Origin: Phycisphaerales bacterium
GTDB lineage: Bacteria; Planctomycetota; Phycisphaerae; Phycisphaerales; SM1A02
DNA: 64,000 nt
Assembly: GCA_009691915.1 (NCBI GenBank)
Contig: SIAD01000002.1
Location: 182,562 to 246,561, forward strand
Direction of reading: 5' to 3'
Shown here: piece by piece, positions 20,901-42,234 of the stretch
Layout of the letters: each line of letters begins with the position of its first letter
How positions within the stretch are numbered: position 1 is the first letter of the stretch
Program-made: the position numbers and the translations under genes
The notes under the pieces: generated by a model
What the model saw: the letters and a program-made list of their open reading frames with translations, nothing else
The model's database searches: none
Told to the model about the DNA's origin: nothing

Positions 20901-22158
20901 CGTCGTCCGCAACGACGGCGGAGAGGGTCCATCCGCGAGGTTGATGCGCGGTGTGCTCGCCCCCATTCGAACGGTGGCCGGTGCCGCGTCGGTCGGGCTC
21001 AGCGCATTTCTGGTCGCGGATCGGAGCGTGACGCGGTTGTCGCCTCCCGACCTTGAGGGCGTCTGGACCGTGCCACTTCTGGGCGAAGTTCGCTTCGTGG
21101 CTCCCGCAGGCGACACGACCTACATCGTTGAGCAGCCCGACCGCGAGACCATCGATGTCGCAGCGATCGACACGCATGGGCGGACGCTCTGGAGGATCGA
21201 CGATGTCGCGTCCGCCGTCTCGGGGACCCCGGTGACACTCTCGCGCAGCGAGTGCGTGCTGATTCCTGGGATGTCCGATCTCGTTGCTGTGCGGGCAGAT
21301 GGGTCGATCGCGTCATTCTCAGTGTCTGACAGCGCCAGGCGGTGGTTCGCCCCGCGCGTGTTTGAGCAGATTGAGTGCGCCGACGGCGGGGAGACACTGC
21401 TAGCGGTCGGTGGCACTCGATCGGATCGCGATGGTCAGACATTGCGCCTCGCGGCCATCGACAGAGGATCGGGTGCGGTCCTCGCTGAGATTCGCATCCC
21501 CAACGACGAACCTGTGCGATGGGTCAGGGTGATTGACTCGGGCTCTGTCGCCTTCGGCACGACGCGCGGAGTTGGACGATGGCAGGTCATTGGTGCGGCC
21601 CAGGGGATCCGCTGGATTGCGATGACTCCGCGGACGAGGGCGACAATCGGGGCCGAGCCGATCGGGGATCGGATCGTGGTCACTGACGCGACCGGCCGGT
21701 CGGGAGTCATCGACTGGGCCACGGGCGCTGAGGTGTCGGGAGCGTTTGGATCATCCAGTGGCAATGCCGGAGGAGACGGCACGAGAAAGTGGGTTCGCAT
21801 GGGTGGGTCGGTCGTTACCTGGACCAACAACGACATTGCGCTCTACACGGTGCATGGCGTCCCCGAGGGCGCGGTCGCACTTCACGGGACGAGGCGAATC
21901 GAGAGTGTGCTCCCAGCATCATGCGCAATTGTGGCGATCGAACAGGGAGACGCCCTCGAGGAGCCGCGCGAGTTCGGAGTCGGGAGACAGCGGGCGAAAG
22001 TGCTGTTGCACCGCTTTGGGTGGACTGACGGGGCGCGGATCATGGGGGCTCCGATGGTGGTGGACTTGCCCGATGGGCGGCTAGACCGTTCCCAGCTGAT
22101 TGATGGATGGATCCTCCTGGGTGGTCCCCAGACGACAACGGCCGTTCCCCTGCCGTAG
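17974..22158 (+). CDS. Large secreted PQQ-like beta-propeller protein
   Basis: 1394-residue protein beginning with a signal-like segment (LCVLALALSGIPPL, then AYAQ). Residues about 290-640 contain repeated PQQ/quinoprotein-type blades, such as GGRLLCLDLETGAKIWEF, GTTLCLDAHDGRVRWIR and VISGEDGSRVMEI. The middle is Ala-rich helical and TPR-like, and a second propeller-like region follows around residues 990-1300 (for example DTHGRTLWRIDD). No catalytic motif is seen, and a role in periplasmic or surface protein assembly is only a guess. Start is GTG 17974 or GTG 17977. Such giant propeller proteins are frequent in planctomycetes. Confidence 0.82.
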   Translation: MVFPYRLSRELCVLALALSGIPPLKFAYAQDRAVVAVDDSPTAEQLMSQAEDHAANNPTESARLASKVLVEFGRKLVHVPGQADRFIDGRTRAHAFLEAHHEVMTRYRAAQSGEADRLESLGLDASLVETRLFTPAGCRAAIRQAQRAVEQARFYTADRLLWAITNHPDLASADPQVLLTLRTLVAVGLGDAPSIARHIASVRSSEDPAMRALGSRLERVAQDSPTPKDTVINPLGVASFGVLPKDIVRLWSEPLENSLYSRLRSSIDEGGFGAGGLEGGLLSGRLLVSVPTIVGSTILVNEGYVLRAYDAYSHQPKWYQFMGAPNSPRTDAQAGDLQVVVVASGRVFALSGHALPTERSGGGRLLCLDLETGAKIWEFSSERLRDQPEFFGLFLYGVPTVVGDTVIVLGRKVTARTETVSSVLGIDRESGEMRFAVPAGAAPGIRIGGSRPFTTPSAAGGWVFVSTGAGTTLCLDAHDGRVRWIRRDPVPVRDAPLDMMPWELGGGCVTDRGLVTLSPAQDEVQLLDPVTGETLDSMPTGTGTAWGAPKYFLTDRTHALVYAVGDGLTAFHTEDLRTPRWRLDSAKILGADPTDTIFAASGRAGIRGRVQSGWLEDGRSALIVPFASKAVVISGEDGSRVMEIACEGPANVVASQGVVAAATSDFIEVFTDATRAQQILEDSVKARPGDPDAVIGLVEFALRARNGELLGHAARLAPATLTAIAGDSARRDRFVGLLILAAQSGLLGRDGSDALFAAIALAAASPQERAVALLAHGEWLRQTRRFSAATAAWRTLLLDPDASAALVESPTSDGIGILVESGANAALQRIVELQRTEPSAAPHDLPAPTGRSFEELALAARTVPGTTAAGHLWLAAAKVAASAADRQLAAGAVMASVDAARASGDRGCVATTLAESLALLDDLKLPVTRAHLLDQCVLGGFDLKLPVLGGLSAAKALLASPASESVQGAPRPVAGCVVRNDGGEGPSARLMRGVLAPIRTVAGAASVGLSAFLVADRSVTRLSPPDLEGVWTVPLLGEVRFVAPAGDTTYIVEQPDRETIDVAAIDTHGRTLWRIDDVASAVSGTPVTLSRSECVLIPGMSDLVAVRADGSIASFSVSDSARRWFAPRVFEQIECADGGETLLAVGGTRSDRDGQTLRLAAIDRGSGAVLAEIRIPNDEPVRWVRVIDSGSVAFGTTRGVGRWQVIGAAQGIRWIAMTPRTRATIGAEPIGDRIVVTDATGRSGVIDWATGAEVSGAFGSSSGNAGGDGTRKWVRMGGSVVTWTNNDIALYTVHGVPEGAVALHGTRRIESVLPASCAIVAIEQGDALEEPREFGVGRQRAKVLLHRFGWTDGARIMGAPMVVDLPDGRLDRSQLIDGWILLGGPQTTTAVPLP

Positions 22159-22817: not shown

Positions 22818-23996
22818 CTACGGGCTCCCAGCAGAAATCGACAACTCGGCGAACTCCAGGCTGTCACGACTGACGCGTACGACGATCGGCGAGCCCCTCG
22901 CACTCGTGCCGAGAGGGATCCACCCCACCTCGATCACCGCCGTTGCAGCCGCCTCCTCGGTCGCGGTCGACGGCTGCGGAGTCGCCTCCAAGGCGAGCCG
23001 CTTCGCCGTCGCCGTCAACAGCCGTCCGTCCGTGAGGGTGATCGCCGCCGCCGTGCCTGGGCTGGCCATGGCTATCGAGTCTTGCCACGGATCCCAGAGA
23101 CTGATTCGGCCGAACCGTGGGTTGTAGAACTGGAGGCGTCCGTCCTCTCTGGGCGACCCATGCAATGGCACCAGCGACTGGTACGCGGTACGCAGGTCGG
23201 CGCGCCAGAAGATTTCACGGGTCACACGGGGAGTCGGGTCCAACCCGTCGCCTAGTCCGAATGCGCACAGTGCGAGCACTCCGTCACGGAGGCGAAGCGC
23301 AAAGAGCGTCCGTCCGTCGTGCGAGAATGTCGGGGCCATCCATGTACCTCCATCGGGGGCGGGTACCTCCCACGACGGCGCTCTGGGGGCGGCTCCAGGG
23401 GTTGCCACCGCAATCGAGAACCCCGAGTCATCTGGTCGTCGTCGGCACCACGCGAGCGCACCCTGCTCTGAGAGGCAGGCGAAGCAGTTGATCTGGGCAT
23501 CACGAACCAGCCACTCAGGAGTTCCGCCGGTCCACAAGCCTCGTCCGATCCACCTGGATCCATCGGCGCGGGGACTCTCGACAAGGAACCCTGCCTCATC
23601 TGCAGAGCGTCCTAGGAGCAACGCATCTCCTTCGATCTCGACGCGTGGCTCGAGCCTGGGCTGCGTCAGCGGAACAACTTCGATACGGCTCGCCCCGATC
23701 GAGGAGCTCTCTCCAAGGACCACACTCCAGTCCGCGCTGCTAGATGCCTGAACGGCAGCCATTGATCCGTCCGGCGAGAGCAGTGGCAGTGTGAACCCAT
23801 CGTGACTGACCTTCCCAAGGCTTCGAAACGCAAAGGTCACCTCGTGCCTGACGACCGGTGCCGATATGGCGCTGACGCCGCCCTCCGAGCCCGGCGGCAA
23901 CTCGACCACGAGCGGCCGTGGAGTCGTCTGGCATGCGCCGAGCGCAAGGCTAAGCCCAAGAGAGAGCGCCGCGAGCGTGGCTCGCTGCGTTGGCAT
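22818..23996 (-). CDS. TolB/WD40-like propeller lipoprotein ending the secretion operon
   Basis: 392-residue lipoprotein: a signal peptide with lipobox LALGACQ at about residue 22, followed by blades with the PD40/TolB pattern (LLSPDGSMAAVQ; PTFSHDGRTLFALR). ATG 23996 overlaps the gspD stop by one base (TGATG), so it is translationally coupled to gspD. In that position it could be a pilotin-like or secretin-associated outer-membrane factor, but no sequence match to known pilotins is claimed. Confidence 0.75.
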   Translation of the reverse strand: MPTQRATLAALSLGLSLALGACQTTPRPLVVELPPGSEGGVSAISAPVVRHEVTFAFRSLGKVSHDGFTLPLLSPDGSMAAVQASSSADWSVVLGESSSIGASRIEVVPLTQPRLEPRVEIEGDALLLGRSADEAGFLVESPRADGSRWIGRGLWTGGTPEWLVRDAQINCFACLSEQGALAWCRRRPDDSGFSIAVATPGAAPRAPSWEVPAPDGGTWMAPTFSHDGRTLFALRLRDGVLALCAFGLGDGLDPTPRVTREIFWRADLRTAYQSLVPLHGSPREDGRLQFYNPRFGRISLWDPWQDSIAMASPGTAAAITLTDGRLLTATAKRLALEATPQPSTATEEAAATAVIEVGWIPLGTSARGSPIVVRVSRDSLEFAELSISAGSP

Positions 23997-26680
23997 CACC
24001 GTCCGTTGGGGTTGATGTTCCGTTCGATTGGGGCCAGCGGCTCGACTCTCTCGCCACCGGGTTTCTCCGGAAGGAGCAGTCGATTCTTCTCTACGAGTGT
24101 CTCCGACTCCGCGTTCAGCGGCTTGGCCAGCACCTCTAGGCGCTCTCGCTCATCCGCGTTGAAGTTCGTGTCGTTCTCATCGGGGTTGTCGACGACCGTC
24201 GGTGTGATGAAGATCAGCAACTCCTTCGTGGTCTTCACATCACTCTGGTTGCTGAAGAATAGGTCGAGGATCGGGATCGACCCCAGCACCGGGAATCCGT
24301 TCTTCTCCCGTGCCTGCGACTCGACCCGCACACCACTGATCACGATCGTCTGGTTGTTCTTGACCGTGATGTTGGTGTTCGTCGACCTTCTTGAAATCGT
24401 CGGATTGTTGCTGCCGTTAACATTGATCGGGGATGCCGTATTGATGTTGGAGAGCAGCACCTTGATCTCCATGGCCACATTGCGCTCCTTCGTGATGCGC
24501 GGACGCACATTGAGACCGATGCCGACCGGGATCTGGTTGTAACTGTTAGTTGTGCCGCCCCCCGTCGCAGCGCCGGTCGTCGTCCCGCTCAGGAATGGAA
24601 CATCGTCGCCGGCAAAGAACTGCGCTTCCTTGTTGTCGGTCGTGAAGACACGGGGCTGCTGCAGAATCCGCACCGAGGTGTCGCGTTGGAGTGCCTGCAG
24701 GATCACATCAGCATTGACTAGGAAGGAGAAATTGAAGGTATTGAACTGCTCCGGGAAGAGTCCGTCTTTCTTCGCGTCGATGGTCGTTGAGATCTTGACC
24801 GCGTTGTTCGGGTTCACGGGCGCAACCGTCCCAGTGGGCCCAAACTTGATTCCCATCGCAAACTGATCCCCCAGTTCCACCTCGGCAAGAATGCTCGAAA
24901 TCATCACCTGTCTTCCAGGCTGGTCCAGTTCCTCGATGAGGGACAGGACCGCCCGCTCAATCTCGGGAGTTGCCAGGACAAGAAGCGAATTCTGATTGGC
25001 GTTGGGGACGACGCGGCTCTTGCCGATCACAGCGCTGACTTCTGTCGCCTCGTCGCCACCCGCACCACCCCGGGCATTCTGCCAGGGGAATTCGATGGTT
25101 CCTCCGGGTGTCGCGCCACCTGATCCCGATCCGGTCCCAGTAGTGTTCGACGAGTCCGTTGCCCCTTGGGCATCGAAGCTTGACGACGGGTCCTTAACTC
25201 CCTCCTCGGGGGCCGAGATGCCCGTACCCGACCCGCTCTCGGCCAGCAGCGCATTGATGATCTCGGCGAGGCTCATCGCGCTGGCGTGTTTGAGCTGAAC
25301 ATTGATGGGCATTCCCACCGACAGCGGTGTGTCGATCTGAAGCATCAGCTGGTCGAGCCAGACGAAGTTGTCGGGCGTCTTGGTGAGGATCACGAGTCGG
25401 CTCGAGTCCGGGTAGGCCTCGATCTTGAAGATGTTGGCGACCGCGACATCGGCACCGGACTCGCCGCCGCCACCGCCGCCTCCCGAACCCGCAAGCCGCG
25501 TAGCTCCCCCTCGGCCGGACGAGGAGCTACCCCCGCCGGAATCGAGCAGTGCCTGCAGCAGATCGCGGACTTTGATTGGGTCGGTGAACTTGAGGTCGTA
25601 GGACTTGAAGATCGATCCGCCCTGTGTCGGCAGAATGTCCCACGCGGTCGCGATCAGGTCGCCGATCCGAATGAGAGTGTCCGCTGCTGCGCGCACTGTC
25701 ACCGAATTGGTAGCCGGAAGCACGGTCACGACAAGCGTCGGGCTCTCCGTGGCTCCTCCCTGGGCCGACGGATTCGGGTTCTGCCCGGGTCGTGCCTGCG
25801 CCCGGTTCGCTCCGCGACTTGCGGTACCCGCGCTCGACGAACCGGAGAAGATCGTCGTGATCGAGTCGGCGATCACCTGCGCGTCGGCGTAGCGGATCCG
25901 AAAGGTCTCGGTGCGAGTATCGGCGAACGGGCTGACATCGAGGATGTTGATGAGCTCCTGACAGCGTTTGGCGAGCCCCACATCTCCTTCGAGGATGATC
26001 TGGTTGGAGTTGGGATCGAACTCGAGTTTCGCGTAGCCCTCGGGCACGCTCCTCAGGTGCTCAACGATCGACTGCGCCTTGGAGTTCTTCACCTGAAAGA
26101 CCTTGATGACGACTTGGCCAGTCTCTTCAAACGCAAGAACATCGACCGATGGGCCAAGCACCACCGCAGGCTGGAGCTTCCCGACATTGCCCCACTGGTC
26201 GATCATGATGAGTTCATCGGTCTCGACGACTGCGATTTCGTTGAGACGGAACGCCTGGAAGATGAGTTCAAGCGCCTTCATCCGCGTGACCGGCTTGTCG
26301 CTGATGACACTGATGGTCTGCTGCCTGAGCAGAGTCACCCGTGGAATGACGGCCTTCCCCGTGCACTCCACAATGAAAGGGAAGAGTTCTTCCGCATGCG
26401 TTTCCTTGAAGTTCACGAGCACCAACTCGTTCATGTCAACGGCTCGACGGTCCTTGCGGAAGTGACGCACAGTGCCCGGGCCAAGGCCCCCTTCAAGCAC
26501 CATTCCCTGCGGAGAGGGCATCGGTGGTTCCTGCGCGTACACGCTTGGTGCTGCGCTGAGGATCATGCCGAGCGAAGCGATCGTCGTAGACGCTTGGGCT
26601 CGAACTGTGGTGCTCTTCTGTGGGGTCACTGGTGTGCTCCGAAGTGTGAACTCAAGTCTGAAACGGGGACGGTAGACCAT
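23996..26680 (-). CDS. gspD: Type II secretion system secretin GspD
   Basis: Outer-membrane secretin of the type II system. Several N-domains (N0-N3) occupy roughly the first 560 residues, including ILDVSPFADTRTETFRIRYA and VTVLPATNSVTVRA. The secretin core shows VPNANQNSLLVLATPE, QVMISSILAEVELGD, VRILQQPRVFTTDN, NVRPRIT, and the C-terminal VPVLGSIPILDLFF-like motif (here FPVLGSIPILDLFFSN). Long Gly/Ser-rich linkers interrupt N2 and N3. ATG 26680 (MVYRPRF) is preferred over an in-frame TTG at 26689. 894 residues. Confidence 0.95.
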   Translation of the reverse strand: MVYRPRFRLEFTLRSTPVTPQKSTTVRAQASTTIASLGMILSAAPSVYAQEPPMPSPQGMVLEGGLGPGTVRHFRKDRRAVDMNELVLVNFKETHAEELFPFIVECTGKAVIPRVTLLRQQTISVISDKPVTRMKALELIFQAFRLNEIAVVETDELIMIDQWGNVGKLQPAVVLGPSVDVLAFEETGQVVIKVFQVKNSKAQSIVEHLRSVPEGYAKLEFDPNSNQIILEGDVGLAKRCQELINILDVSPFADTRTETFRIRYADAQVIADSITTIFSGSSSAGTASRGANRAQARPGQNPNPSAQGGATESPTLVVTVLPATNSVTVRAAADTLIRIGDLIATAWDILPTQGGSIFKSYDLKFTDPIKVRDLLQALLDSGGGSSSSGRGGATRLAGSGGGGGGGESGADVAVANIFKIEAYPDSSRLVILTKTPDNFVWLDQLMLQIDTPLSVGMPINVQLKHASAMSLAEIINALLAESGSGTGISAPEEGVKDPSSSFDAQGATDSSNTTGTGSGSGGATPGGTIEFPWQNARGGAGGDEATEVSAVIGKSRVVPNANQNSLLVLATPEIERAVLSLIEELDQPGRQVMISSILAEVELGDQFAMGIKFGPTGTVAPVNPNNAVKISTTIDAKKDGLFPEQFNTFNFSFLVNADVILQALQRDTSVRILQQPRVFTTDNKEAQFFAGDDVPFLSGTTTGAATGGGTTNSYNQIPVGIGLNVRPRITKERNVAMEIKVLLSNINTASPINVNGSNNPTISRRSTNTNITVKNNQTIVISGVRVESQAREKNGFPVLGSIPILDLFFSNQSDVKTTKELLIFITPTVVDNPDENDTNFNADERERLEVLAKPLNAESETLVEKNRLLLPEKPGGERVEPLAPIERNINPNGR

Positions 26681-26695
26681 GATTGCCAATCGCGG

Positions 26696-27721
26696 TCATG
26701 GGGCAGTCCCCTGTCGCGTGCGCAGGAGCACAAACTCCTCGCGAAGCCGCGCTTGGGTGGCCTGATCAAGTCCTGGCATGCGACGCGCGCGGCTCACTTG
26801 GGAGATGGCCGCCCCGACCTCTGCGGGGGTCATCACAGCAATCCGTGAGGCAGAAATCGGAGGAGGAGGCTGATCCGAGGGTCCGAGTGTCGGTGCAGGG
26901 GCAATTGCTCGTGCCTCTGAGTAGGCAGGAAGCGGCATCGCTGCGCGCACGGCTGGCGGCGTTGGTATCTCAGTCGATGGCGCGCGAGTTGTCTGGCGCT
27001 CGGCGTCGGGAGCATCCGAATCTGGTTCGTCTGGATCGGAGGCGACCACGACAACAACCGGAGGCGCAGGTTCCGCCTCCACGGCAGGCTCGGCGGCGAG
27101 CGCGACCTCGGCCGGCTCCGGAGGCGACAGCGCCAGCAGCGCAGTCGGCGCATCCTTGATGAGGTTCGATGCGCCACGAACGGGGGGCGATCCAAGTTTC
27201 GACCAGTCGGTGCCCGTCCACACCGGCACGGAGTAAGTCCCTCCCATGTGCTCGATGCGCACATTCGATGGAGGTTCAATTCCCAACACTTTGATCCCGT
27301 TCTTCTCTTCGCCGACTCGAATCGTGATTGACTCGAAGAACACTGAACTCCCCACCATCCCCCTAGGTACTGCTCCGGAATACTTGGCAGGTGGTGGCGG
27401 TGGCGGTTCCACTGGTTCGAGCCGCGGCGGCGGCGGGGGGGGCGTGGGTGGTGTCTTTCGCGGCGGCGGCGGGGGAATCACAAACAAACTCCGCCCCGTG
27501 AAGCGGTCCCGTGAAGTCTTCATCAGGTCCTGATGGCGCTCAAGTGCGCGATCAATTGCAGACACACCACCGGAATCCGCGCCAGGCGCCAAGAGCGACG
27601 AGATTGCGGGAAGTCCCTCCGACAGCACCACCCATCCGCCGAGCAGCACCGCCACCACGCTGACAATGAAGGGACCGGACCATCGGATCCCCGACGGAAG
27701 CGGCAGGCGGAGGTCGTTCAC
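26696..27721 (-). CDS. Inner-membrane GspC/PilP-like protein with polyproline linker
   Basis: 341 residues: a short cytoplasmic start, one membrane helix (about 15-40), a proline-rich linker with several runs of six prolines (about 80-115), then a small domain (about 115-170) with the pattern ITIRVGEEKNGIKVLGIEPP, resembling periplasmic GspC-HR or PilP regions. A second disordered Pro/Ala region leads to a C-terminal motif shared with the GspL-like protein. Its place just before gspD fits a secretin-coupling role. The GTG start overlaps the preceding stop as GTGA. Confidence 0.65.
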   Translation of the reverse strand: MNDLRLPLPSGIRWSGPFIVSVVAVLLGGWVVLSEGLPAISSLLAPGADSGGVSAIDRALERHQDLMKTSRDRFTGRSLFVIPPPPPRKTPPTPPPPPPRLEPVEPPPPPPAKYSGAVPRGMVGSSVFFESITIRVGEEKNGIKVLGIEPPSNVRIEHMGGTYSVPVWTGTDWSKLGSPPVRGASNLIKDAPTALLALSPPEPAEVALAAEPAVEAEPAPPVVVVVASDPDEPDSDAPDAERQTTRAPSTEIPTPPAVRAAMPLPAYSEARAIAPAPTLGPSDQPPPPISASRIAVMTPAEVGAAISQVSRARRMPGLDQATQARLREEFVLLRTRQGTAP

Positions 27722-28329
27722 TGTGCTGCTCCCTTACGCGCGGCCTTCGCCGAAGTGGCCCATGCCTCCGCAAGCAGCTTGACGCTCACCTTGCGGGTGT
27801 CTCCCACACGGTTGAGCCTCACCGAGTAGATCGAGTCGATCGCCGGGTGCAACTCCAGGTCGGCAAGGATGGCCGAGACTTCGTCAGCGTCGGTTTCGAA
27901 ACTCACCTGTCCCCGCACCCGCTCGATGCGCTGTCCGGCTCCCACGATCGCCGCGAAGGCATTGGTTGGAAGTTTTCCTCCCTGCAGCGACTCGTAGCCG
28001 GAGTTGGCAATGTGGTGATTTCGCAGCGTCTCGGTGATCGCCTTCGCCAGCGACTGGGATGTCGATGCTTCCTCGGTGGGAACTTCGGCCTTGCCGTAGG
28101 CGATCACAGCCCGTTCGATGTCCTTGGAGAGTGCCGACTGTCGATTTGCGCCTCGTTCAAGTAGCGACTCGAGCCGGTCAGCCTGCGCATTCCACTCGGT
28201 GGCGTAACTCCATACATAGTCGTGAACGAAGAGTGCTCCAACCAAGAGCCCTCCTGCGGCGATCACCACCTTGGCGGCAGGGGAGAGCGCCGCAAACTTT
28301 GCGGTGACTGTCGCCTTGGAGGCGCTCAT
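27718..28329 (-). CDS. GspM/PilO-like secretion protein
   Basis: 203 residues with one N-terminal membrane helix (about residues 17-37), a helical coiled segment (about 45-80) and a C-terminal ferredoxin-like alpha/beta domain in which the pattern VRGQVSFETDADEVSAILAD is typical of PilO/GspM. It lies between the GspL/PilN-like and GspC/PilP-like genes, the usual place for the inner-membrane platform partner. 4-bp overlaps on both sides indicate tight coupling. Assignment is by architecture and position. Confidence 0.68.
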   Translation of the reverse strand: MSASKATVTAKFAALSPAAKVVIAAGGLLVGALFVHDYVWSYATEWNAQADRLESLLERGANRQSALSKDIERAVIAYGKAEVPTEEASTSQSLAKAITETLRNHHIANSGYESLQGGKLPTNAFAAIVGAGQRIERVRGQVSFETDADEVSAILADLELHPAIDSIYSVRLNRVGDTRKVSVKLLAEAWATSAKAARKGAAQ

Positions 28330-30263
28330 GGATTCCGAGCCCTATCGAGCAACTTGTAGAACTCAGCTTTCAGTCGCGCCTCGGTGGCCTCATCGAGACT
28401 CGCGAGTCCGCGCGCGGTCGAGACCCTTGTCGCGGCTTCTCGCGCCTCCGCCTGAGTCATGGCAGCAATATGCTCGCCAGTCAGCGGCTCGGGGACGGCG
28501 GGCGCAGGGGTCTCGGCGCCCGGCCGACCACGGCGGGCGATCTCGCTCGTCGCGCCTGCACTCGATGGTGGGCGTCTGCGAGACCGCGGGTCGTCCGCCG
28601 TGGATGGGGCGCCTGCCGCCGCCGCTGCCATCGAATCCGCGGTGGTTTCGACCAGGTCCGGCGAGTTGTGGTCGGTTGGTCCCGGTCTAGGCGGTTCGCT
28701 CTCGGCGATGGGCGAGGCGGGGTCGATCGTGTCGGTCGGGGTGCCGTACTTACGATCCCTGAGCGTCCGCTTGGCAAAGTCCTGATCATCGGAATAGTTG
28801 GGCACCAGAGTTGGCTTGATGATCGTCGCCGTCAGATCGAACTTCACAATGCCGTTGGCGTTCGGTGGATCCCAGGTCTTCTCGACCCGGTCGAAGACAC
28901 CGGAGGCGCGCATCTGCTCCTCCATCTGGAGGATCGCATCGGCGGCGTTCGCACTCCCTCCCCGAGGCTTAGCGGTCCCGGCGAGTGTCAGCGGAGCATT
29001 CTGGCCGATCGTGATGATTTCAATCTCGATTCCTTCAGGTGTCGTTGATGCCACATCCCCGAGCAGCTTGGCCACAGGCCATGCGTAGCGCTCGTAGTCC
29101 CGATACATCGCCGATTGCTTGTCGTCGCGGTCGAGGATGCGTGCGTACGCCTCCGGTTCTGGGAGGAGCCATTGGAGATACAGGAGTCTTACGCCGGCGA
29201 CGGCCGGTGGAAGGAGCGCGATGATCAAGACGGCGGCTACGGCCAGTTTCGCGGCAAACCGTGGCCGTTCTGCTGAGATTGCCAGTTGCCGGAAGAACCC
29301 GGGATGCACGACTGTCTCCTGGGCCTGAAGGGCGCACAACCGACTCAGCGGTCCGCCGAGCGCGAGCACCAGTCCAGCGACTGTGCCGCTGGCATTCCAC
29401 CAACCATCATCCGAAGGTGCGCTTGACACGAGCGCCTTGCCCGAGTCGACTCCTCCAGCAAGCGGGGCGATGAACCCGTCACAGCACTCCGCGACCGCAC
29501 GCGTGACTGCCTCGCCGATTGACTTCGACGCGGCCTCAGGCACATCGGCCAGGATGAGCGTCTCCTCAACGGCCCGCACCACAGCGACGCACCACTCCTC
29601 GGCATCGGATCCATCCTCTCGCACCACGCGAAAGGCGCTGTGGATCCCATTCGTGAACGCGATCGAGATGGATCCCCCCGCGCGATCAAGTAGGATCGTC
29701 AGAGACTCGGCCGCGCCCAGCGTAAGCGCCCCGGTCGCGAGTGCGGCAAGGCCGACAATCCCGGGAGCGAAGGTCACTCCCGGAAGGTCGAGCAGTGGTC
29801 TGAGTGCCTCCGGTGGCAGCTTGACCATCGGCCACTCGACGACCAGCGCCATCCGCTGGGCATCGGGATCAACCATCGGCAGAAGCGACCCGTCGGTTCG
29901 CCACCGGGCCGAACCGCCCAGCCGAAGATTCTCAATCTGCAGACGCAGCGCCATCTCCAACTGGTCGGCAGACCCGGTCGGCATGGTCATGGTGCGGCAG
30001 ATGACCTCGGTCCCGCCGAGAACCACCACCACCCGCGTTGCCGCGCTCGATCGATGCAGCGTCATCGTTTCCTGCATGCACGCTGGGCCGCGGAAGGAGA
30101 AGGTCTCGACTATGTGCGGATGGGTGGATCCTGTGCGCACCACCGCGATGCTGACAACTGTCAGCTCTTCGCCTTGGAAGTGCGGCTGGACGACCCATAG
30201 CAGGTTCGGGTCGGGTGCTTGGCGGGCGGACTGAACTTCCACTGGTTTGGCCGAGTGCTTCAT
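28326..30263 (-). CDS. GspL / PilM-PilN-like inner-membrane platform protein
   Basis: 645 residues. The first about 320 form an actin-like PilM/GspL cytoplasmic region, a membrane helix spans about 338-360, and a PilN-type periplasmic domain follows (for example GIEIEIITIGQNAPLTLAG). A long Pro/Ser/Ala-rich linker precedes a C-terminal motif also found in the GspC/PilP-like protein. In the type II system this protein recruits GspE to the membrane. MKHSAKPVEV at 30263 overlaps gspK by 4 bp and is the natural start. Confidence 0.75.
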   Translation of the reverse strand: MKHSAKPVEVQSARQAPDPNLLWVVQPHFQGEELTVVSIAVVRTGSTHPHIVETFSFRGPACMQETMTLHRSSAATRVVVVLGGTEVICRTMTMPTGSADQLEMALRLQIENLRLGGSARWRTDGSLLPMVDPDAQRMALVVEWPMVKLPPEALRPLLDLPGVTFAPGIVGLAALATGALTLGAAESLTILLDRAGGSISIAFTNGIHSAFRVVREDGSDAEEWCVAVVRAVEETLILADVPEAASKSIGEAVTRAVAECCDGFIAPLAGGVDSGKALVSSAPSDDGWWNASGTVAGLVLALGGPLSRLCALQAQETVVHPGFFRQLAISAERPRFAAKLAVAAVLIIALLPPAVAGVRLLYLQWLLPEPEAYARILDRDDKQSAMYRDYERYAWPVAKLLGDVASTTPEGIEIEIITIGQNAPLTLAGTAKPRGGSANAADAILQMEEQMRASGVFDRVEKTWDPPNANGIVKFDLTATIIKPTLVPNYSDDQDFAKRTLRDRKYGTPTDTIDPASPIAESEPPRPGPTDHNSPDLVETTADSMAAAAAGAPSTADDPRSRRRPPSSAGATSEIARRGRPGAETPAPAVPEPLTGEHIAAMTQAEAREAATRVSTARGLASLDEATEARLKAEFYKLLDRARNP

Positions 30264-31669
30264 GGTTCTCGGTAGTTCATGATCTGTGCTGGCAGGGTTG
30301 AACGATCGACCGTCGCCAGGATTTCGCACTCCGCGCCACTCATCTTTGATCGCCCCACGCTTGAAACCGTAAAGACAAAACTCTGTACATCAAGATGCTT
30401 GGCCAGGGGAGCGAGGACATCACGGGACATTCCAGGGATCTCGAGGATGTCCGCGACGCTGGTCAGTCCTGTCGGCCGGGCGTCGCGGCGCGAGAGAAGG
30501 GTATCGACAAGCTTCGGGTTCATGGCGAAGACTTCCCGGAGGACCCGACCCGAGGCGGTATTGATGTTGATCTTGCCCGGCCCAGGGCGGGTGAAGACGG
30601 TCATCGTGCACTCGTTCAGAACCCGTCCGAGGCTCTTGGCGTCGAGGTCTCCCGGGCCGGCTTGCGCGACTCCGGTGCCACCGGTGGAACGCGCTCCACT
30701 TGACCGATTGGTCCTGCCCGAACTCGCGCCTCCCAGGGCGCTTCCTCCAGTCGCTGGGGACTGTCCGCTTGCTCCGCCGACGGCCAGCGTCGACAGAGGC
30801 GCCGTCAGGAGATTCTCAATGCGTGCATTCGGCGTCTGCGAGTACTGGATCAGCGACGCCGCCTGCTGTGCGGAGACTCCCGTGCGCTCAACCACCTCAT
30901 CGGGACTCGCCGTCTTGAGATTGATCTTCGCGAATCCGCTGGGCGCGTTGGGGGAGCTCTTGGAGAAGGCAGTCAGGATTGACGACCACCCTCCGTCGAG
31001 CACACCGTCAGACTTGTCGTCGGGCCAGGTCTGTTCACCGTCATCCTCGTTGGAGTCGAGGCGCCCATTCAGGTTCCAGTCTTCACTGCGCGTGTACTCG
31101 GGCCAGACTCCGGCGATCAACTCAAGTTCCGCAAACGACCGCAGGTTTCCGTTTCGTGGTTCGTACCCAAGGCCGCGATTGGCGTAGTAGGTCTTCTCCG
31201 CGCCGATCATGCTGGCGTTCTCATCGGCATCGCGCCAGTCGGTGATCGCGCCGGCCACATCGGGCGTCATATCTGGAATGTTCATGAGCTCAGCCGATGA
31301 AAGCAGATTTATGTTGGCCTTACTGTGTTCATCGAGCGGTCCGATGTACTCGACTCCATCGAGAAAGTGGCGGATGTCGTAGGTTCCCGTCTCCAACTCA
31401 CCGGTCGCGCTATCGTCGAGCTCGTTGATCATCGCCAGAGCATCCTCCGGGTCGGAGTTCTCGGTATGCCACTCCATGATCGCGATCATCGTTTCAAGTC
31501 CGGCGCGTGCCGCCCATCGGGCCTGGACGCGCGCCAGCGCCTCGCTGCCGAGCACTGCCTGTCGATAGGTCAGAATCTGTAATCCCGCCACGATCGTCGC
31601 CGCGATCGCAACCGTCCAGATCACGATGACGAGCGCGGACGCTCGGCGACTTCTTGACGAGGACCACAT
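30260..31669 (-). CDS. gspK: Type II secretion minor pseudopilin GspK
   Basis: 469 residues. A short positively charged leader and hydrophobic helix (ALVIVIWTVAIAATIVAG) lack the Glu5 of other pseudopilins, which is normal for GspK. The helix-hairpin-helix repeats are clear: NINLLSSAELMNIPDM, INLKTASPDEVVERTG and ININTASGRVLREVF. A Gly/Ser/Thr-rich insertion (about residues 297-345) separates the last two. GspK caps the pseudopilus tip with GspI and GspJ. Its ATG overlaps the gspJ stop by one base. Confidence 0.9.
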   Translation of the reverse strand: MWSSSRSRRASALVIVIWTVAIAATIVAGLQILTYRQAVLGSEALARVQARWAARAGLETMIAIMEWHTENSDPEDALAMINELDDSATGELETGTYDIRHFLDGVEYIGPLDEHSKANINLLSSAELMNIPDMTPDVAGAITDWRDADENASMIGAEKTYYANRGLGYEPRNGNLRSFAELELIAGVWPEYTRSEDWNLNGRLDSNEDDGEQTWPDDKSDGVLDGGWSSILTAFSKSSPNAPSGFAKINLKTASPDEVVERTGVSAQQAASLIQYSQTPNARIENLLTAPLSTLAVGGASGQSPATGGSALGGASSGRTNRSSGARSTGGTGVAQAGPGDLDAKSLGRVLNECTMTVFTRPGPGKININTASGRVLREVFAMNPKLVDTLLSRRDARPTGLTSVADILEIPGMSRDVLAPLAKHLDVQSFVFTVSSVGRSKMSGAECEILATVDRSTLPAQIMNYREP

Positions 31670-32676
31670 CAGTTTGGTCCCCTAGACCCCGGACCACCGG
31701 ATCTACCTTGTCCACCGCCGAATGAGGGACGCCCTCCACCGGATCCACCTTGTCCCCCTCGGCCCCCTCCCGGTCCTCGGGCTCCACCTCCGCGGCCAGT
31801 TCCATCAGGACCGCGCATCACACCTCCACCAGTTCCGCCGCGTCCTCCCGGCCCACCGCCGGATGTCTCGCCTGGACCGCCGGCCGTCGCGCCACCTTCT
31901 GCAAGCACACCGCCCGCTGCCGCGTCGGCAGGAGTCTCCGCCGCTACGACCGCTCCATCAGCGGATTCGGTCTCCTCAGTGGGTGGCTCTTCATAGGGTG
32001 GAATTGCTCGATCGATGGGGATGATCGTGCGGAGACTCATGAGATCGTGTCCCGACTCGTACAGATCGCTGCCGTCGGGCGCACCCCCAGTCGAGACGGT
32101 AACGCGAAGCGCCCAAGGAAGTCCAAGAACATCAGAGTCCCACTCGTCATACCACGACGCACCGTCGAACGCCTCGACATTGAGACCGATGACTCCCTCC
32201 ATCACCGGTATGGCCTGACCCCCGCCGAGCTCGTTCTCATCAGGGACGGCATCGGAGCGGATCCAGAGTGCTGATCCGGTGTCGTCTTGTTCGACGCGGC
32301 ACTGCACCTCGTGCTCGAACCCGTCTCCCGCGTACTTCTGCTCGCGCACCGGCGAGAGCTTTGATGCGTAGACGAGGATTTGATCCCGGTCGAGTTCGCC
32401 AACCGGGGAGTCTTCCTTGTCATCTACGACGACAACGCGCGAGTCAAGGAGTGCGTCGCTTCGGATCACCTGCTGGAACTCGCGTCGCATGCGCTCAAGC
32501 GCGGTGTTGGCGCGCAACGAGCTGCTCAATCTGACCTTGGCCATGGAGCGGGATCGTGCGATTTGGCTCAGTGACGCGCCGATAGTGGCGAGCACGATCG
32601 CCGCGATCACGCTGGCCACGATCAGCTCAAGGAGCGTGAAGCCCCGGGGGGAGTTTCTGTCACTTCGTCGCGGCAT
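31669..32676 (-). CDS. gspJ: Type II secretion minor pseudopilin GspJ with glycine-rich tail
   Basis: 335 residues from MPRRSDRNSPRG. The prepilin site G|FTLLELIVA has Gly at -1 and Glu5. The globular part matches the GspJ pattern (FQQVIRSDALLDSR; MSLRTIIPI). After about residue 240 the protein runs into a roughly 95-residue tail that becomes almost pure Gly with Arg, Ser and Pro, unusual for a pseudopilin. ATG 32685 is an alternative start; either overlaps the gspI end. Confidence 0.85.
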   Translation of the reverse strand: MPRRSDRNSPRGFTLLELIVASVIAAIVLATIGASLSQIARSRSMAKVRLSSSLRANTALERMRREFQQVIRSDALLDSRVVVVDDKEDSPVGELDRDQILVYASKLSPVREQKYAGDGFEHEVQCRVEQDDTGSALWIRSDAVPDENELGGGQAIPVMEGVIGLNVEAFDGASWYDEWDSDVLGLPWALRVTVSTGGAPDGSDLYESGHDLMSLRTIIPIDRAIPPYEEPPTEETESADGAVVAAETPADAAAGGVLAEGGATAGGPGETSGGGPGGRGGTGGGVMRGPDGTGRGGGARGPGGGRGGQGGSGGGRPSFGGGQGRSGGPGSRGPN

Positions 32677-33118
32677 TCTCGTCATCTTTCGAGTCCCAAT
32701 AGGACTGACGGTCGAACGGTTCCGAGGGCATGCGCTCGGGATTGGGCTCCTCCCCGGCGCGGATAGCGATCCTCGTCGCGCAGCGGTAGCCGCGCCCCGC
32801 GTCGTCATGGACTATCGCCATCACCTCGCATGGATAGCCAGGCTCCGCCTCTTCGATCACGACCTCGTAGTTGTAGCCGTCGAATGGCGACTCGAAGGTT
32901 CCACTGGTGTCGTGCTGCTTCGGCCAATCGACCGGACCTTCGACGAGGATCTCCGCGAGGAGTTGATCCAGGAGGGCTGCCGCCACGACGCCTCGCTCAC
33001 CCCGTTGCTGCTCCATGAGCGAGCGCGAGGCGAGAGAGACCACGGCACCGAGACCGATGGCCAGGACCACGCCTGCGATGATCACTTCAAGGAGCGCGAA
33101 CGCGCGGCGCTCAGTCAC
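32660..33118 (-). CDS. gspI: Type II secretion minor pseudopilin GspI
   Basis: 152 residues. Prepilin-type N-terminus RRAFALLEVIIAGVVLAIG with Ala at -1 and at +2 and the conserved Glu5. The soluble part contains YNYEVVIEEAEPGYPCEV and RGYRCATRIAI. The GTG at 33118 overlaps the gspH stop as GTGA and has GGAG 7 nt upstream; the GTG at 33121 is less well spaced. Identification as GspI rests on position between gspH and gspJ and on size. Confidence 0.78.
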   Translation of the reverse strand: MTERRAFALLEVIIAGVVLAIGLGAVVSLASRSLMEQQRGERGVVAAALLDQLLAEILVEGPVDWPKQHDTSGTFESPFDGYNYEVVIEEAEPGYPCEVMAIVHDDAGRGYRCATRIAIRAGEEPNPERMPSEPFDRQSYWDSKDDENAATK

Positions 33119-33690
33119 CACTTTTCTCCCCGACTCCCATACTTGGACATGTCGCGGGGCTCGCGTGGGGAGAGCGTTGTCGACCCCGCGTCCATCCGCA
33201 CAGGAGTGACGGCGTTGGAGTCAAGCCGCAAGACCGTGTCGATGACCGGTGAGACGATGTGCATCTCAATGGAGGGGCGCCCGCCGCCTGGAACCGTTGG
33301 GATCAGCCAATCGGTTCCCGACACATCGAGCCCGTCGACCACAAGATCCGCCAATTCCATCTCCGGCGCCAGCGCTACGGGCTGGAGGCGACGGTCAGCG
33401 AACCATTCGGCGCGTGAATTCCGGCTCTCGCCTCCCGCGTCAAGGTTGCGCTCAGCCACGAGGATCGTGAACCATTGCGTTTCGGGATCCTGCCAGAGGG
33501 CGATCTGCTGGCTTGAGGTCGCCTCGCGAAAGGCATACATGGAGAGGAGGTCGAGCATCCGCTCGACGACGGCATCGTGCTCGCTCTTAGTCGTTCGCGT
33601 GACCCTAGGGACGATCATCGCGGCCATGATCGCAATGATCGCGACGGCGATGATCACCTCGATGAGCGTGAATGCCCGTCGAGGTGCCAT
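33115..33690 (-). CDS. gspH: Type II secretion minor pseudopilin GspH
   Basis: 191 residues. MAPRRAFTLIEVIIAVAIIA is a prepilin leader with Ala at -1 and Glu5; the hydrophobic helix continues to MAAMIVPRV. The globular part (SSQQIALWQDPETQWFTI) follows the GspH layout. GGGGAG lies 9 nt before the ATG. It directly follows gspG (3 bp) and overlaps gspI by 4 bp. Confidence 0.8.
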   Translation of the reverse strand: MAPRRAFTLIEVIIAVAIIAIMAAMIVPRVTRTTKSEHDAVVERMLDLLSMYAFREATSSQQIALWQDPETQWFTILVAERNLDAGGESRNSRAEWFADRRLQPVALAPEMELADLVVDGLDVSGTDWLIPTVPGGGRPSIEMHIVSPVIDTVLRLDSNAVTPVRMDAGSTTLSPREPRDMSKYGSRGEKW

Positions 33691-33693
33691 CAC

Positions 33694-34125
33694 CTACTGC
33701 TCCCCGTGCGTGATGTCCCCTGCGTCCCCTTCGCCGCCAGGCTGGCCATCGGCGCCGTACGACAGGATGTCAAAGTCAAAGTTCGTGACTCCGGGAACGA
33801 TGATCATGTAGGCGTTCCCCCACGGATCCAGCAGGTCGCTCTTCTTCTCGAGATAAGGATTGTCTCCCGCCGTGAGAACCTCAAGGTCGAAGTCGTCCGG
33901 AATCTTGCTGAGACCAGCCTCGACCATATAGGCCCTTACCTGATTGGCCATTGACGCCGCCTCCGCCCGAGCGCGCTTGTCCTTAGCCTGACCGATGAAG
34001 CGGCCGACGCGCGGCGCGAGGACAGCCGCCAGAATGGCAACGATGGTGACCGCGACGATGACCTCAAGCAGCGTGAACGCGCGGGCGGTACGACGGGTGG
34101 TATGGGGGATGGGCCGTGTCTTCAT
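33694..34125 (-). CDS. gspG: Type II secretion major pseudopilin GspG
   Basis: 143 residues. RAFTLLEVIVAVTIVAILAA gives the prepilin site with Ala at -1 and Glu5. The C-terminal part has the GspG calcium/loop signature DPWGNAYMIIVPG and ILSYGADGQPGGEGDAGDI. This is the main subunit of the pseudopilus. It lies between gspF and gspH in the standard E-F-G-H order. Confidence 0.95.
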   Translation of the reverse strand: MKTRPIPHTTRRTARAFTLLEVIVAVTIVAILAAVLAPRVGRFIGQAKDKRARAEAASMANQVRAYMVEAGLSKIPDDFDLEVLTAGDNPYLEKKSDLLDPWGNAYMIIVPGVTNFDFDILSYGADGQPGGEGDAGDITHGEQ

Positions 34126-34179
34126 GGTTGTTCTCTACGGTGGTCTGAACGCTGTCGTGCGTAGGGTATTGCCGGTCTG

Positions 34180-35451
34180 TCACCCCCCCAGCGTCTTCTG
34201 GAGTTCCAGAAGCGGAAGCATGATCCCCATCAGCACAAATCCTGCGATGACCGCCATGACGACGATCAGGATCGGCGGAAGGGCCTTGGTGAACATCTTG
34301 AGCGATGTATTGACTTGGCGGTCGAACGCCGTGGCGGCGTGCATGAGCATGGGCTCAAGGCGGCCAGAGCGCTCGCCGATGTTCACGATCTGCACCAGGA
34401 GCGGAGGAAACAGCCCTGATCGCTCCAGCGGATCCGCCAGCGACGATCCGGTCGTGACTTTCTCCTGCACTTCGTCAATGGCCGCCATCATGGCGGCGTT
34501 GCCGAGCGTGTCGCGCACCACCCGCAGAGCCTGCAGGATCGGGATGCCCGCGGAGACGAGAGTCCCGAGTGTGCGCGTGAATCGCGCGACAGCGACATCG
34601 CGCAGCAGCACTCCGAGGATCGGTACACGCAGCAGCGTCAGGTCGAGTAGCAGGCGATTGGTCGGCACCGCCACCCATCGCTGCCAAGCGATGTACCCGG
34701 CGATCAAGGCAAGCACCATCGCCCACCACCAGGAACCAATGAAACTCGCAAGCCCTAGCAATACGACCGTCGGAAATGGAAGTGTCCCCTTTCCCTGCGA
34801 CAGGATCGGTGCCATGATCTTGGGGAGGACAAAAGTGACGAGCACGACGACGCTCAGCGCGATGATTGCGGCCACGATCATGGGGTAGACGGTTGCGCCG
34901 ACAACCTCGCGCTTGAGTTCCACCGAGCGGTCAAGCAGATCGGCCAGTTGGTGCAGCACCTCAGCGTTTCGACCCGACGCGTCGGCGGCGCGGAACATAC
35001 CGACGGTCATGTCGTCGAATGGCGGTCCGTACTCCTTGGCCGCCTGGTGGAGCGTCACGCCCGCTTCCACCCGTTCGATCAAGAAATCGAGAATCTGAGG
35101 CATCCCCTTGCCCTTGGCCTGACGGCGCACAGTGCGCAGCGACTGGAGCAGCGGAAGACCAGCCTCTATGGCGGTGGCCAGTTCTCGGATTAGCGAGGTG
35201 AGCTCGCTCTTGGATATTGACGGTTTCTTCGAACGTGACTGCAGTAGCGCACCGAGCCCTGCGAATGGGACCTTCGTCCCCGACGCGGCGATAACTGCGG
35301 CGCGCGGCGCCTTCGAGTCTCCAACCGCCTCGACCGAGGTCGCCACGACTCCCTGCTGGAACAGGATCCGCATCGCATCTGCCCTGGTGTTCGCTTGAAT
35401 CGTCCCACCACCCGATGCCGCGCCAAGACCCTGGTACCTGAAGGTTGCCAT
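34180..35451 (-). CDS. gspF: Type II secretion inner-membrane protein GspF
   Basis: 423-residue polytopic platform protein with two homologous cytoplasmic GspF domains (about 85-205 and 290-405), each followed by hydrophobic helices (around 190-250 and 390-415). Typical segments are ELATAIEAGLPLLQSLRTV, FTRTLGTLVSAGIPILQAL and NIGERSGRLEPML. It couples the GspE ATPase to pseudopilus growth. It begins 8 bp after gspE. Confidence 0.95.
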   Translation of the reverse strand: MATFRYQGLGAASGGGTIQANTRADAMRILFQQGVVATSVEAVGDSKAPRAAVIAASGTKVPFAGLGALLQSRSKKPSISKSELTSLIRELATAIEAGLPLLQSLRTVRRQAKGKGMPQILDFLIERVEAGVTLHQAAKEYGPPFDDMTVGMFRAADASGRNAEVLHQLADLLDRSVELKREVVGATVYPMIVAAIIALSVVVLVTFVLPKIMAPILSQGKGTLPFPTVVLLGLASFIGSWWWAMVLALIAGYIAWQRWVAVPTNRLLLDLTLLRVPILGVLLRDVAVARFTRTLGTLVSAGIPILQALRVVRDTLGNAAMMAAIDEVQEKVTTGSSLADPLERSGLFPPLLVQIVNIGERSGRLEPMLMHAATAFDRQVNTSLKMFTKALPPILIVVMAVIAGFVLMGIMLPLLELQKTLGG

Positions 35452-35459
35452 TGAAGTAC

Positions 35460-37094
35460 CTAGGCTCCGATCTCGTCGACATCCTGGGTCGCCCGGAGCA
35501 CTTCATCGATGGTGGTCATGCCGTTCTGCGCCTTACTCATTCCATCCTGACGCATCGTGAGGAACTCCGCGCCCACGAGGGGCTTGAGATCACTCATCGA
35601 GAGTCCCTTCGAAATGCCCGCGCGCAGGCGGGGATTGATCTTCAGCAGTTCGAAGAACCCGACCCGTGATCGGTACCCCGAGTTGCGGCAATCGTCGCAG
35701 CCGACTGGCTTCCACGGGCCGTCGACAAACAACGCCTCTTCCTCCTGGCTAAGCCGCGACCGCATGTCATCGGTCAGAGATGTCCGTTGTCGGCACTTGG
35801 CACACAGTCTCCTTCCGAGCCGCTGAGCAAGCAACCCCTCCAGCACGCTCGCGACGAGGAACGGCTCGGCACCCATATCCGTCAAACGGCCGATGGAGGA
35901 GATCGCGTCGTTGGTATGCAGGGTCGAGAGGATCAGATGGCCCGTCAGCGCCGAGCGGATGGCGATGTCCACGGTCTCGTTGTCGCGGATCTCGCCCACG
36001 AGGATGACATCAGGATCCTGCCTGAGCATGGCGCGCAACCCGATGGCGAAGGTGAGTCCCCGCTTCGGATTCACGGGAATCTGGTTCACCCCGGCGAGTT
36101 CGTACTCGACAGGATCTTCAATCGTCAGGATCTTCAGGCGCGGGTCGTAGAGCTGCGTGAGCGCGGCATAGAGGGTGGTCGTCTTGCCGCTCCCTGTAGG
36201 CCCGGTCACCAGAATCAGCCCATGCGGCTTATCGATCAGACGATCCATCGTCGCGCGGTGCGCTTCGTTCATGCCGAGGCTTGCGAGGTCCAGCGGAAGA
36301 TTGTTCTTGTCGAGGATTCGCATCACCACGCTCTCGCCGTAGATCGTGGGGACGGTTGAGACTCTCAGGTCGACCTTGCGCCCTTCGAACCGCAGAGTGA
36401 TGTGCCCGTCCTGCGGGATATATCGCTCGGCGATGTTCATCATCGCCATGATCTTGATTCGACCGATGAGCGCGGCCTGCAAGTGCTTGGGGGGCGATGG
36501 TTGTTCGATCAGGACGCCGTCGACGCGGTACTTGATCTTGACGATGCTCTCAAATGGTTCGACATGGACATCGCTGGCCCGAATCTGGATTGCCTCGAGG
36601 ATCAGCAGATTGACAAGATTGATGAGCGTTGGCTGCTCCGCCATCCGGTGTACATCTGCCGCCTCGATGGCATCGACATTGTTTTCCGATTCCCCTTTGG
36701 CCTGCTCGGTCGTTCCCGCAAGGGACTCGGCGATGCGCGCGGCGGTCGTCCCATAGGAACGCCGCATCAACTCGGCGAATGCCCCGGCCTCTACACCGGT
36801 TCGAGTGACAGGCATCTTGACGATCGTCGCCACTTCATCGGCGGCCGTCACATCAAGCGGGTTGAACATCGCTACCACCAGCCGGCCGCGTTCGATCTTG
36901 AGCGGCACCGTGCGTACACGCACGGCGACATCCGGCTCCAGCAGTGAGATCAACTGCGGATCCACCTCGGGCGCCTTGTCATGCCATGTGATCCCCAGAG
37001 TTCGGCACCGCTCGCGAACTCTTGCCGCGTCCGCTTCGGCCGAGTTGGCGTCCGCGCCCCGGCGTCCGATCTGGATTTCCGACGCGGGCGTCAT
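35460..37094 (-). CDS. gspE: Type II secretion ATPase GspE
   Basis: 544-residue assembly ATPase. An MshEN/T2SSE-N-like domain lies at about 25-130. The ATPase core has Walker A GPTGSGKTTT (298-307), Asp-box and Walker B-type LRQDPDVILVGEIRD, and His-box LSTLHTND. The metal-binding pair CAKC and CDDC lies near 435-475. It powers pseudopilus assembly through GspL/GspF. It starts 3 bp after the unknown first gene of the operon. Confidence 0.96.
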   Translation of the reverse strand: MTPASEIQIGRRGADANSAEADAARVRERCRTLGITWHDKAPEVDPQLISLLEPDVAVRVRTVPLKIERGRLVVAMFNPLDVTAADEVATIVKMPVTRTGVEAGAFAELMRRSYGTTAARIAESLAGTTEQAKGESENNVDAIEAADVHRMAEQPTLINLVNLLILEAIQIRASDVHVEPFESIVKIKYRVDGVLIEQPSPPKHLQAALIGRIKIMAMMNIAERYIPQDGHITLRFEGRKVDLRVSTVPTIYGESVVMRILDKNNLPLDLASLGMNEAHRATMDRLIDKPHGLILVTGPTGSGKTTTLYAALTQLYDPRLKILTIEDPVEYELAGVNQIPVNPKRGLTFAIGLRAMLRQDPDVILVGEIRDNETVDIAIRSALTGHLILSTLHTNDAISSIGRLTDMGAEPFLVASVLEGLLAQRLGRRLCAKCRQRTSLTDDMRSRLSQEEEALFVDGPWKPVGCDDCRNSGYRSRVGFFELLKINPRLRAGISKGLSMSDLKPLVGAEFLTMRQDGMSKAQNGMTTIDEVLRATQDVDEIGA

Positions 37095-41675: not shown

Positions 41676-42146
41676 TCACTCTGGCTTACCAGAACTAGCG
41701 TCGTAGACCCAGGTATCGCCGGCCATGGGATACGAGTGGATTTCGCCCGGGCTGAAGAACAATCCAAGTTCACGCTGTGCGGCCTCGGGGCCATCGGACC
41801 CGTGCACCAGGTTGAACGAGTTGGAGATCCCGTAGTCCCCGCGGATCGTTCCGGCAGCAGCCTTTGATCCGAAAGTCGCGCCCATCAGGTTCCGACAGAT
41901 GGCAATCGCCCCGACCCCGCTGAGCGCCATGACGACGACGGGCTGGCTCGTCATGAACTTGACGAGGGCGGGGTAAAAGGGCTTGCTCGAATGGTCTTGG
42001 TAGTGTCGCGCCGCGAGATCCGGGGAGATCTTCATCAACTTCATCCCGACAACCTGCAGACCCTTCTGCTCGAAGCGGCCAATGATGGTTCCGACGAGGC
42101 GTCGTTGCACGGCGTCCGGCTTGAGAATGATGAGCGTGGTTTCCAT
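41676..42146 (-). CDS. ndk: Nucleoside-diphosphate kinase
   Basis: Transfers the gamma phosphate from ATP to NDPs through phosphohistidine. ETTLIILKPDAVQRRLVG at the N-terminus, GATFGSKAAAGTIRGDYG, and the catalytic-site motif NLVHGSD with His115 are intact; 156 residues is normal. It is divergent from topoisomerase VI B, with 88 bp between starts, and lies 45 bp upstream of the sigma-factor gene on the same strand. Confidence 0.97.
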   Translation of the reverse strand: METTLIILKPDAVQRRLVGTIIGRFEQKGLQVVGMKLMKISPDLAARHYQDHSSKPFYPALVKFMTSQPVVVMALSGVGAIAICRNLMGATFGSKAAAGTIRGDYGISNSFNLVHGSDGPEAAQRELGLFFSPGEIHSYPMAGDTWVYDASSGKPE

Positions 42147-42234
42147 GGTGGGGGGGGCGGGATGGTACCGATCAGAGTTGACCGTGGGTCATGAATGCCG
42201 AGCATTTCCGGTCGTTGGCTACACTTGGATCGGC

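Follow-up and report, generated by a model that had tools for sequence, protein, structure and literature searches.

A shared C-terminal domain on GspL and GspC of a type II secretion system in Phycisphaerales

GspL and GspC, two inner-membrane proteins of the type II secretion system (T2SS) encoded in the window (the whole stretch of 64,000 nucleotides that was analysed), end in the same module of about 50 residues, which is a real, undescribed and lineage-specific domain. The tail is ancestral on GspL; a single copy passed to GspC, and further exported proteins received copies sporadically. This is the new element, and the tail-bearing T2SS is a variant of the known machine rather than a machine of a new kind. 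Little work has been done on the T2SS of Planctomycetota, and in a limited check confined to papers open without subscription no description of a planctomycete T2SS at this level, or of such a tail, was found. A tail carried by GspL, added once to GspC and lost naturally amounts to a built-in experiment on platform assembly. The ~50-residue undescribed domain family can also be used for annotation, and it is small enough for structure determination and direct binding work.

The T2SS operon and its products

The T2SS core operon was located on the minus strand of the window in the order E-F-G-H-I-J-K-L-M-C-D, with gspM between gspL and gspC; the stretch H-I-J-K-L-M-C-D has the identical order in the xps operon of Xanthomonas (PMC11981180). 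GspC and GspL were found where the initial annotation had placed them, each with the Pro/Ala-rich linker that it had described before the tail, and no more than a few residues separate either tail from the stop codon. The features are:

30260–37094, minus strand: gspE-F-G-H-I-J-K, upstream of gspL (GspK by T2SSK and NF037980, the others by sequence and order)
28326–30329, minus strand: gspL, 667 aa, with PilM/EpsL-like domain, transmembrane helix, ferredoxin-like domain, linker and tail (AlphaFold2, Foldseek, Pfam)
28494–28814, minus strand: GspL periplasmic linker, residues 506–612, Pro/Ala/Ser-rich (pLDDT, mean pairwise identity 0.20)
28335–28487, minus strand: GspL C-terminal tail domain, residues 615–665, predicted three-helix fold (profile 80–81 bits; AlphaFold2)
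27718–28329, minus strand: gspM, without tail (Pfam T2SSM E 0.001, under the curated cut-off)
26696–27721, minus strand: gspC, 341 aa, with transmembrane helix, Pro-rich stretch, HR-like region, linker and tail (position, topology, alignment)
26867–27196, minus strand: GspC Pro/Ala-rich linker, residues 176–285 (mean pairwise identity 0.21; composition)
26708–26860, minus strand: GspC C-terminal tail domain, residues 288–338 (BLASTP E 8e-10 to GspL tail; profile 72–74 bits)
23996–26689, minus strand: gspD secretin, next after gspC (Pfam Secretin E 6e-44; TIGR02517 E 1e-96, slightly under cut-off)

The cytoplasmic domain of GspL was matched by Foldseek to PilM, EpsL (1yf5) and GspL (4pht, 5tkw) with E 6e-7 to 5e-5. 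In the full-length AlphaFold2 model a transmembrane helix was predicted at 356–388 and an alpha-beta-beta-alpha-beta-beta order at ~419–503, an order that reads as ferredoxin-like from the DSSP pattern and not from a structural match of its own. When 31 GspL orthologues were scanned with Pfam, PilN was returned for 11 and T2SSL for 2. Linker pLDDT was <50 at 532–544 and 549–606, and the ~75 residues 532–606 are mostly predicted to be disordered. Linker and tail extend GspL ~160 residues past the ferredoxin-like domain, so the protein does not end there; this extension marks a variant and is no ground to deny GspL membership, which is supported by predicted fold and topology. For GspC, sequence and alignment gave one N-terminal transmembrane helix (~13–35), a Pro-rich periplasmic part and an HR-like conserved stretch (~113–172) without a significant hit in Pfam or among PDB sequences, and the protein was provisionally assigned to GspC by its gene position, its topology and this stretch. 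In GspC proteins the HR domain is the part that binds N0 of the secretin. Some known GspC proteins have no PDZ domain. No Pfam match to a C-terminal PDZ or coiled coil was obtained for the GspC of the window, and the tail domain occupies this end of the protein.

Two further open reading frames on the minus strand flank the operon. Directly after gspD lies a lipoprotein-like ORF of 393 aa (22818–23999) with no Pfam match, a homologue of which (35% identity, E 5e-42) follows gspD in another genus (L107, 10676–11908); it is perhaps a candidate T2SS accessory protein in the place of a pilotin. Directly upstream of gspE (37098–38447) lies a gene for a protein of 449 aa that has a signal peptide and no Pfam match; this gene may be the first of the T2SS operon.

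Homology of the two tails

BLASTP of full-length GspL against full-length GspC returned the tails as the sole significant alignment (GspL 613–663 with GspC 286–336; 24/51 identical, 47%; E 8e-10), and the homology that had been proposed for the last ~50 residues, together with the significance of the pairwise score, was thus borne out. The proposed length also held; the start was shifted, as the module begins at P-x-P-L/I-[ST], just before the motif first quoted. The tail pair scored 104 by Smith–Waterman; shuffled sequences averaged 24.6 ± 4.7 with a top score of 56, and 0 of 20,000 reached 104. Chance or composition bias might be invoked for an Ala-rich sequence from a high-GC genome; it was ruled out by the shuffles and by the profile, which recovered both tails at orthologous positions across many genera, and its probability is considered negligible. 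Many synonymous sites differ between the GspL and GspC tail codons, which argues against a recent DNA copy. Mean likeness was 0.33 for GspL and GspC tails of the same genome and 0.32 for tails of different genomes; with same-genome tails no more alike and synonymous codons different, recent DNA duplication or gene conversion inside the operon was left unsupported.

Sequence, fold and constraint of the tail

Tail profiles were built from 35 tails (A2) and later from 66 tails (A4), and gave the consensus PLTxEQIxAMxxxEAxxALxxVxxARxxxxLDxxTxxRLxxEFxxLxxR. The isolated GspL tail was modelled by AlphaFold2 as three helices (mean pLDDT 90.5, pTM 0.74), and the same three helices were seen at 618–665 in the full-length model (pLDDT ~90). 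These models suggest an autonomously folding domain on a flexible tether, which the topology of GspL would place in the periplasm. Among the GspL regions compared, mean pairwise identity fell from 0.39 in the tail through 0.34 (ferredoxin-like domain) and 0.28 (cytoplasmic domain) to 0.20 in the linker; the GspC values were 0.37 (tail) and 0.21 (linker). Sequence conservation thus supports the view that the module is kept by selection.

The initial annotation had regarded the module as undescribed on two T2SS inner-membrane proteins, and this stood up to Pfam and PDB sequence searches. In the Pfam scan of 35 tails at most 3 members shared any family (best E 0.004), the weak matches were scattered, and no resemblance to a known peptidoglycan-binding domain was found; the PDB sequence search with the tails returned nothing credible. 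HeliScrew4 was rejected as a relative because it matched only via repeated LTPEQIAAL-like segments, as was NblA (E 0.05, partial helix match). Foldseek with the tail model returned nothing at E <0.001. Many of the top matches were ribosomal uL29-type chains (TM ~0.7–0.76, E >=0.58), which share with the tail a short helix and an antiparallel helical hairpin. This is a resemblance of simple topology in fold only: when uL29 of related genomes was compared by hhalign, a probability of 2.4% over 17 columns was obtained, and homology with uL29 was rejected.

Distribution and order of events

The genome of the window contains two convincing copies of the tail only, those on GspL and GspC; three other matches in the same genome (C33, C6, C14) were at E 0.07 or worse, or gone, with the better profile. 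The tail was present in 44 of 61 related genomes and in 110 of 121 genomes of the window's family. In a search of class and phylum in which few candidates were scored per genome, it was confined to four families (f1–f4) of the window's order; since the phylum search missed f4, weak copies elsewhere are possible. Families f5 and f6 were left out of the judgement because their GspL is too divergent to recognise.

For location of T2SS operons across the order, GspK was used as anchor. Among 51 operons having both GspL and GspD, from four families, the GspL tail was detected by HMM in 50 and by eye in the last (L138). In 26 of these operons, every one from family f1, the tail was also detected on GspC, and no GspC tail occurred where GspL lacked one. 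In an overlapping operon set, both tails were found in 30 operons, the GspL tail only in 31, the GspC tail only in 0, and none by HMM in 1 (L226, where it is visible by eye). GspL is therefore the constant carrier of the tail in Phycisphaerales T2SS operons of this type, and on both proteins the tail always lies within a few residues of the C-terminus.

On the GspD tree, the state 'GspC has tail' requires three changes, which are most simply read as a single gain, on a branch inside f1 that has full support, and two later losses in the window's genus (G001 and G015). One gain with two losses makes the GspL copy ancestral and the GspC copy a derived duplicate. In G014, of the same genus (L049, gspC ORF 182–1351, minus strand), the tail DNA is split between two reading frames, which is either a real break or a sequence error of the metagenome-assembled genome. 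The GspC tails from the window's genus grouped together in the tail tree; the deeper forks are beyond the resolution of 52 columns. The ancestor of this aquatic bacterial lineage had the tail on GspL, one copy of which was later placed on GspC, two genes downstream, within a single clade of the window's family. The older GspL tail persists in many operons with a tailless GspC and so was not born for a handshake between GspL and GspC.

Other carriers of the tail

The tail had been put forward as a module of secretion proteins. The profiles also matched unrelated proteins, yet these were a minority and nearly all were predicted to be exported or periplasmic (topology judged by eye). In genera g7 and g14 the carriers were DUF1579 proteins that have a signal peptide and bear the tail domain twice in tandem. 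The tandem-copy exported proteins are:

L060 5260–6690, minus strand: DUF1579 by Pfam
L110 3379–4617, minus strand: DUF1579 by Pfam
L112 2298–3524, plus strand: DUF1579 by Pfam (these three were scanned)
L115 3787–4962, plus strand: DUF1579 by resemblance
L116 4934–6085, minus strand: DUF1579 by resemblance

The other carriers were a TlpA-like redoxin, a vWA/YfbK protein with one transmembrane helix, a small protein with one transmembrane helix, two fragments, a secretin-N-like protein and a WD40-repeat protein. The secretin-N-like protein (L063 4431–5501, plus strand; so called by eye, with no Pfam match) is predicted to be exported, and its C-terminal end is almost identical to the tail that GspL carries in its own genome. 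The WD40-repeat protein (L054 3–2456, plus strand) is cut by the contig end, and its tail copy (genome G018) was nearest to the GspL tails of sister species and not to that of its own genome; this contig may be misbinned. In the tail tree the extra copies in G025 and G066 each had the GspL tail of their own genome as closest neighbour. That extra copies lie nearest to GspL tails indicates that other proteins, mostly exported ones, acquired the tail from GspL on more than one occasion.

Comparison with known T2SS

Compared with proteobacterial T2SS, GspL gains a C-terminal extension of ~160 residues and the tail replaces the PDZ domain or coiled coil of GspC (PMC11981180, PMC6882859, PMC3815138). 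Many proteobacterial GspC proteins typically end in a PDZ domain, which is needed for secretion of the substrate VesB in Vibrio (PMC12369372). Like PDZ or coiled coil, the tail would be a folded periplasmic domain ending GspC beyond the HR region; it differs in having no Pfam similarity to PDZ, in also ending GspL and in being present on GspC in only about half of the operons. A domain fold shared by two inner-membrane platform proteins of one T2SS is known from the periplasmic ferredoxin-like domains of OutL and OutM in Dickeya, which have the same fold and drive homo- and heterodimers (PMC3815138). The shared domain described here differs in its three predicted helices, in the pair concerned (GspL and GspC) and in its place after the ferredoxin-like region, and pairing is only proposed for it.

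Possible function of the tail

The tail probably lets parts of the machine grip each other or a common periplasmic partner. How the six-fold platform hub, the GspC cage and the 15-fold secretin of T2SS are held together is only partly understood (PMC6882859). Our best explanation, offered tentatively, is a portable three-helix docking or oligomerisation module of the T2SS platform in the periplasm, ancestral on GspL and copied once to GspC. The domain would hang on the flexible linker beyond the ferredoxin-like region and pair with another copy, originally GspL with GspL and after the duplication also GspL with GspC. Such pairing would bundle neighbouring platform subunits, and it would link the GspL hub with the GspC cage while leaving their geometry free. 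In favour of pairing are the homology and constraint of the two tails, a confidently predicted fold on a disordered tether, a GspC tail that never occurs without the GspL tail, and the tandem copies in DUF1579 proteins. Also counted for it are the near-constant GspL tail across four families, the single gain on the GspD tree, the predicted export of nearly all extra carriers, the copies derived from GspL of the same or a close genome, and a weak excess of co-variation of the two tails. Against it, the window's genus shows at least two losses of the GspC tail, and since about half of the operons have the tail on GspL only, any pairing of GspL with GspC must be dispensable.

Pairing is placed slightly ahead of a second reading, nearly as likely, in which both tails bind the same third component of the periplasm (GspD, a pseudopilin, peptidoglycan or a receptor) and tail copies send their carriers there. 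Docking on one and the same partner had been suggested by the initial annotation and is plausible. This would account for a GspL tail kept where GspC has none and for the repeated transfer to unrelated exported proteins, a reuse that fits a common receptor equally well; no candidate with a matching distribution was found, however, and the tail is unlike any known peptidoglycan-binding domain. As docking partner, neither peptidoglycan nor the secretin in particular is favoured by the evidence. In a mirror-tree analysis a weak excess of co-variation of GspL and GspC tails beyond the operon background was obtained (partial r 0.17, p 0.005); with a signal this weak, and same-genome pairs no more alike than others, no firm choice between pairing and a third partner was made. 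The near-universal predicted export of the extra carriers, and the need for GspC PDZ in VesB secretion (PMC12369372), could instead point to a substrate-recognition or adaptor-docking site, by which tail-bearing exported proteins reach the T2SS via the GspL and GspC tails. Since extra carriers are missing from most genomes, among them that of the window, recruitment of this kind cannot be the principal role, and the reading is judged improbable. Equally improbable is a tail without any partner, either a folded cap shielding the far end of the long disordered linker or a domain with an effect on stability only: its constant place near the C-terminus of GspL and GspC and its small, stable predicted fold would suit a cap, whereas its conservation exceeds that of functional GspL domains, and one specific domain, rather than assorted caps, is found across families. 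Should pairing be the correct reading, the domain could, more speculatively and with rather doubtful standing, act as a self-associating, mobile periplasmic snap connector that bundles GspL, was put to use on a single occasion for clipping GspC onto GspL, and has repeatedly brought exported proteins to the platform.

Other genes of the window

An exported protein of 1394 aa with a PQQ/BamB-like stretch is encoded on the plus strand at 17974–22158. Type IIB topoisomerase (Topo VI) is unusual in bacteria; genes for both of its subunits, Topo VI B (42082–44058) and A (44065–45186), were found adjacent on the plus strand.
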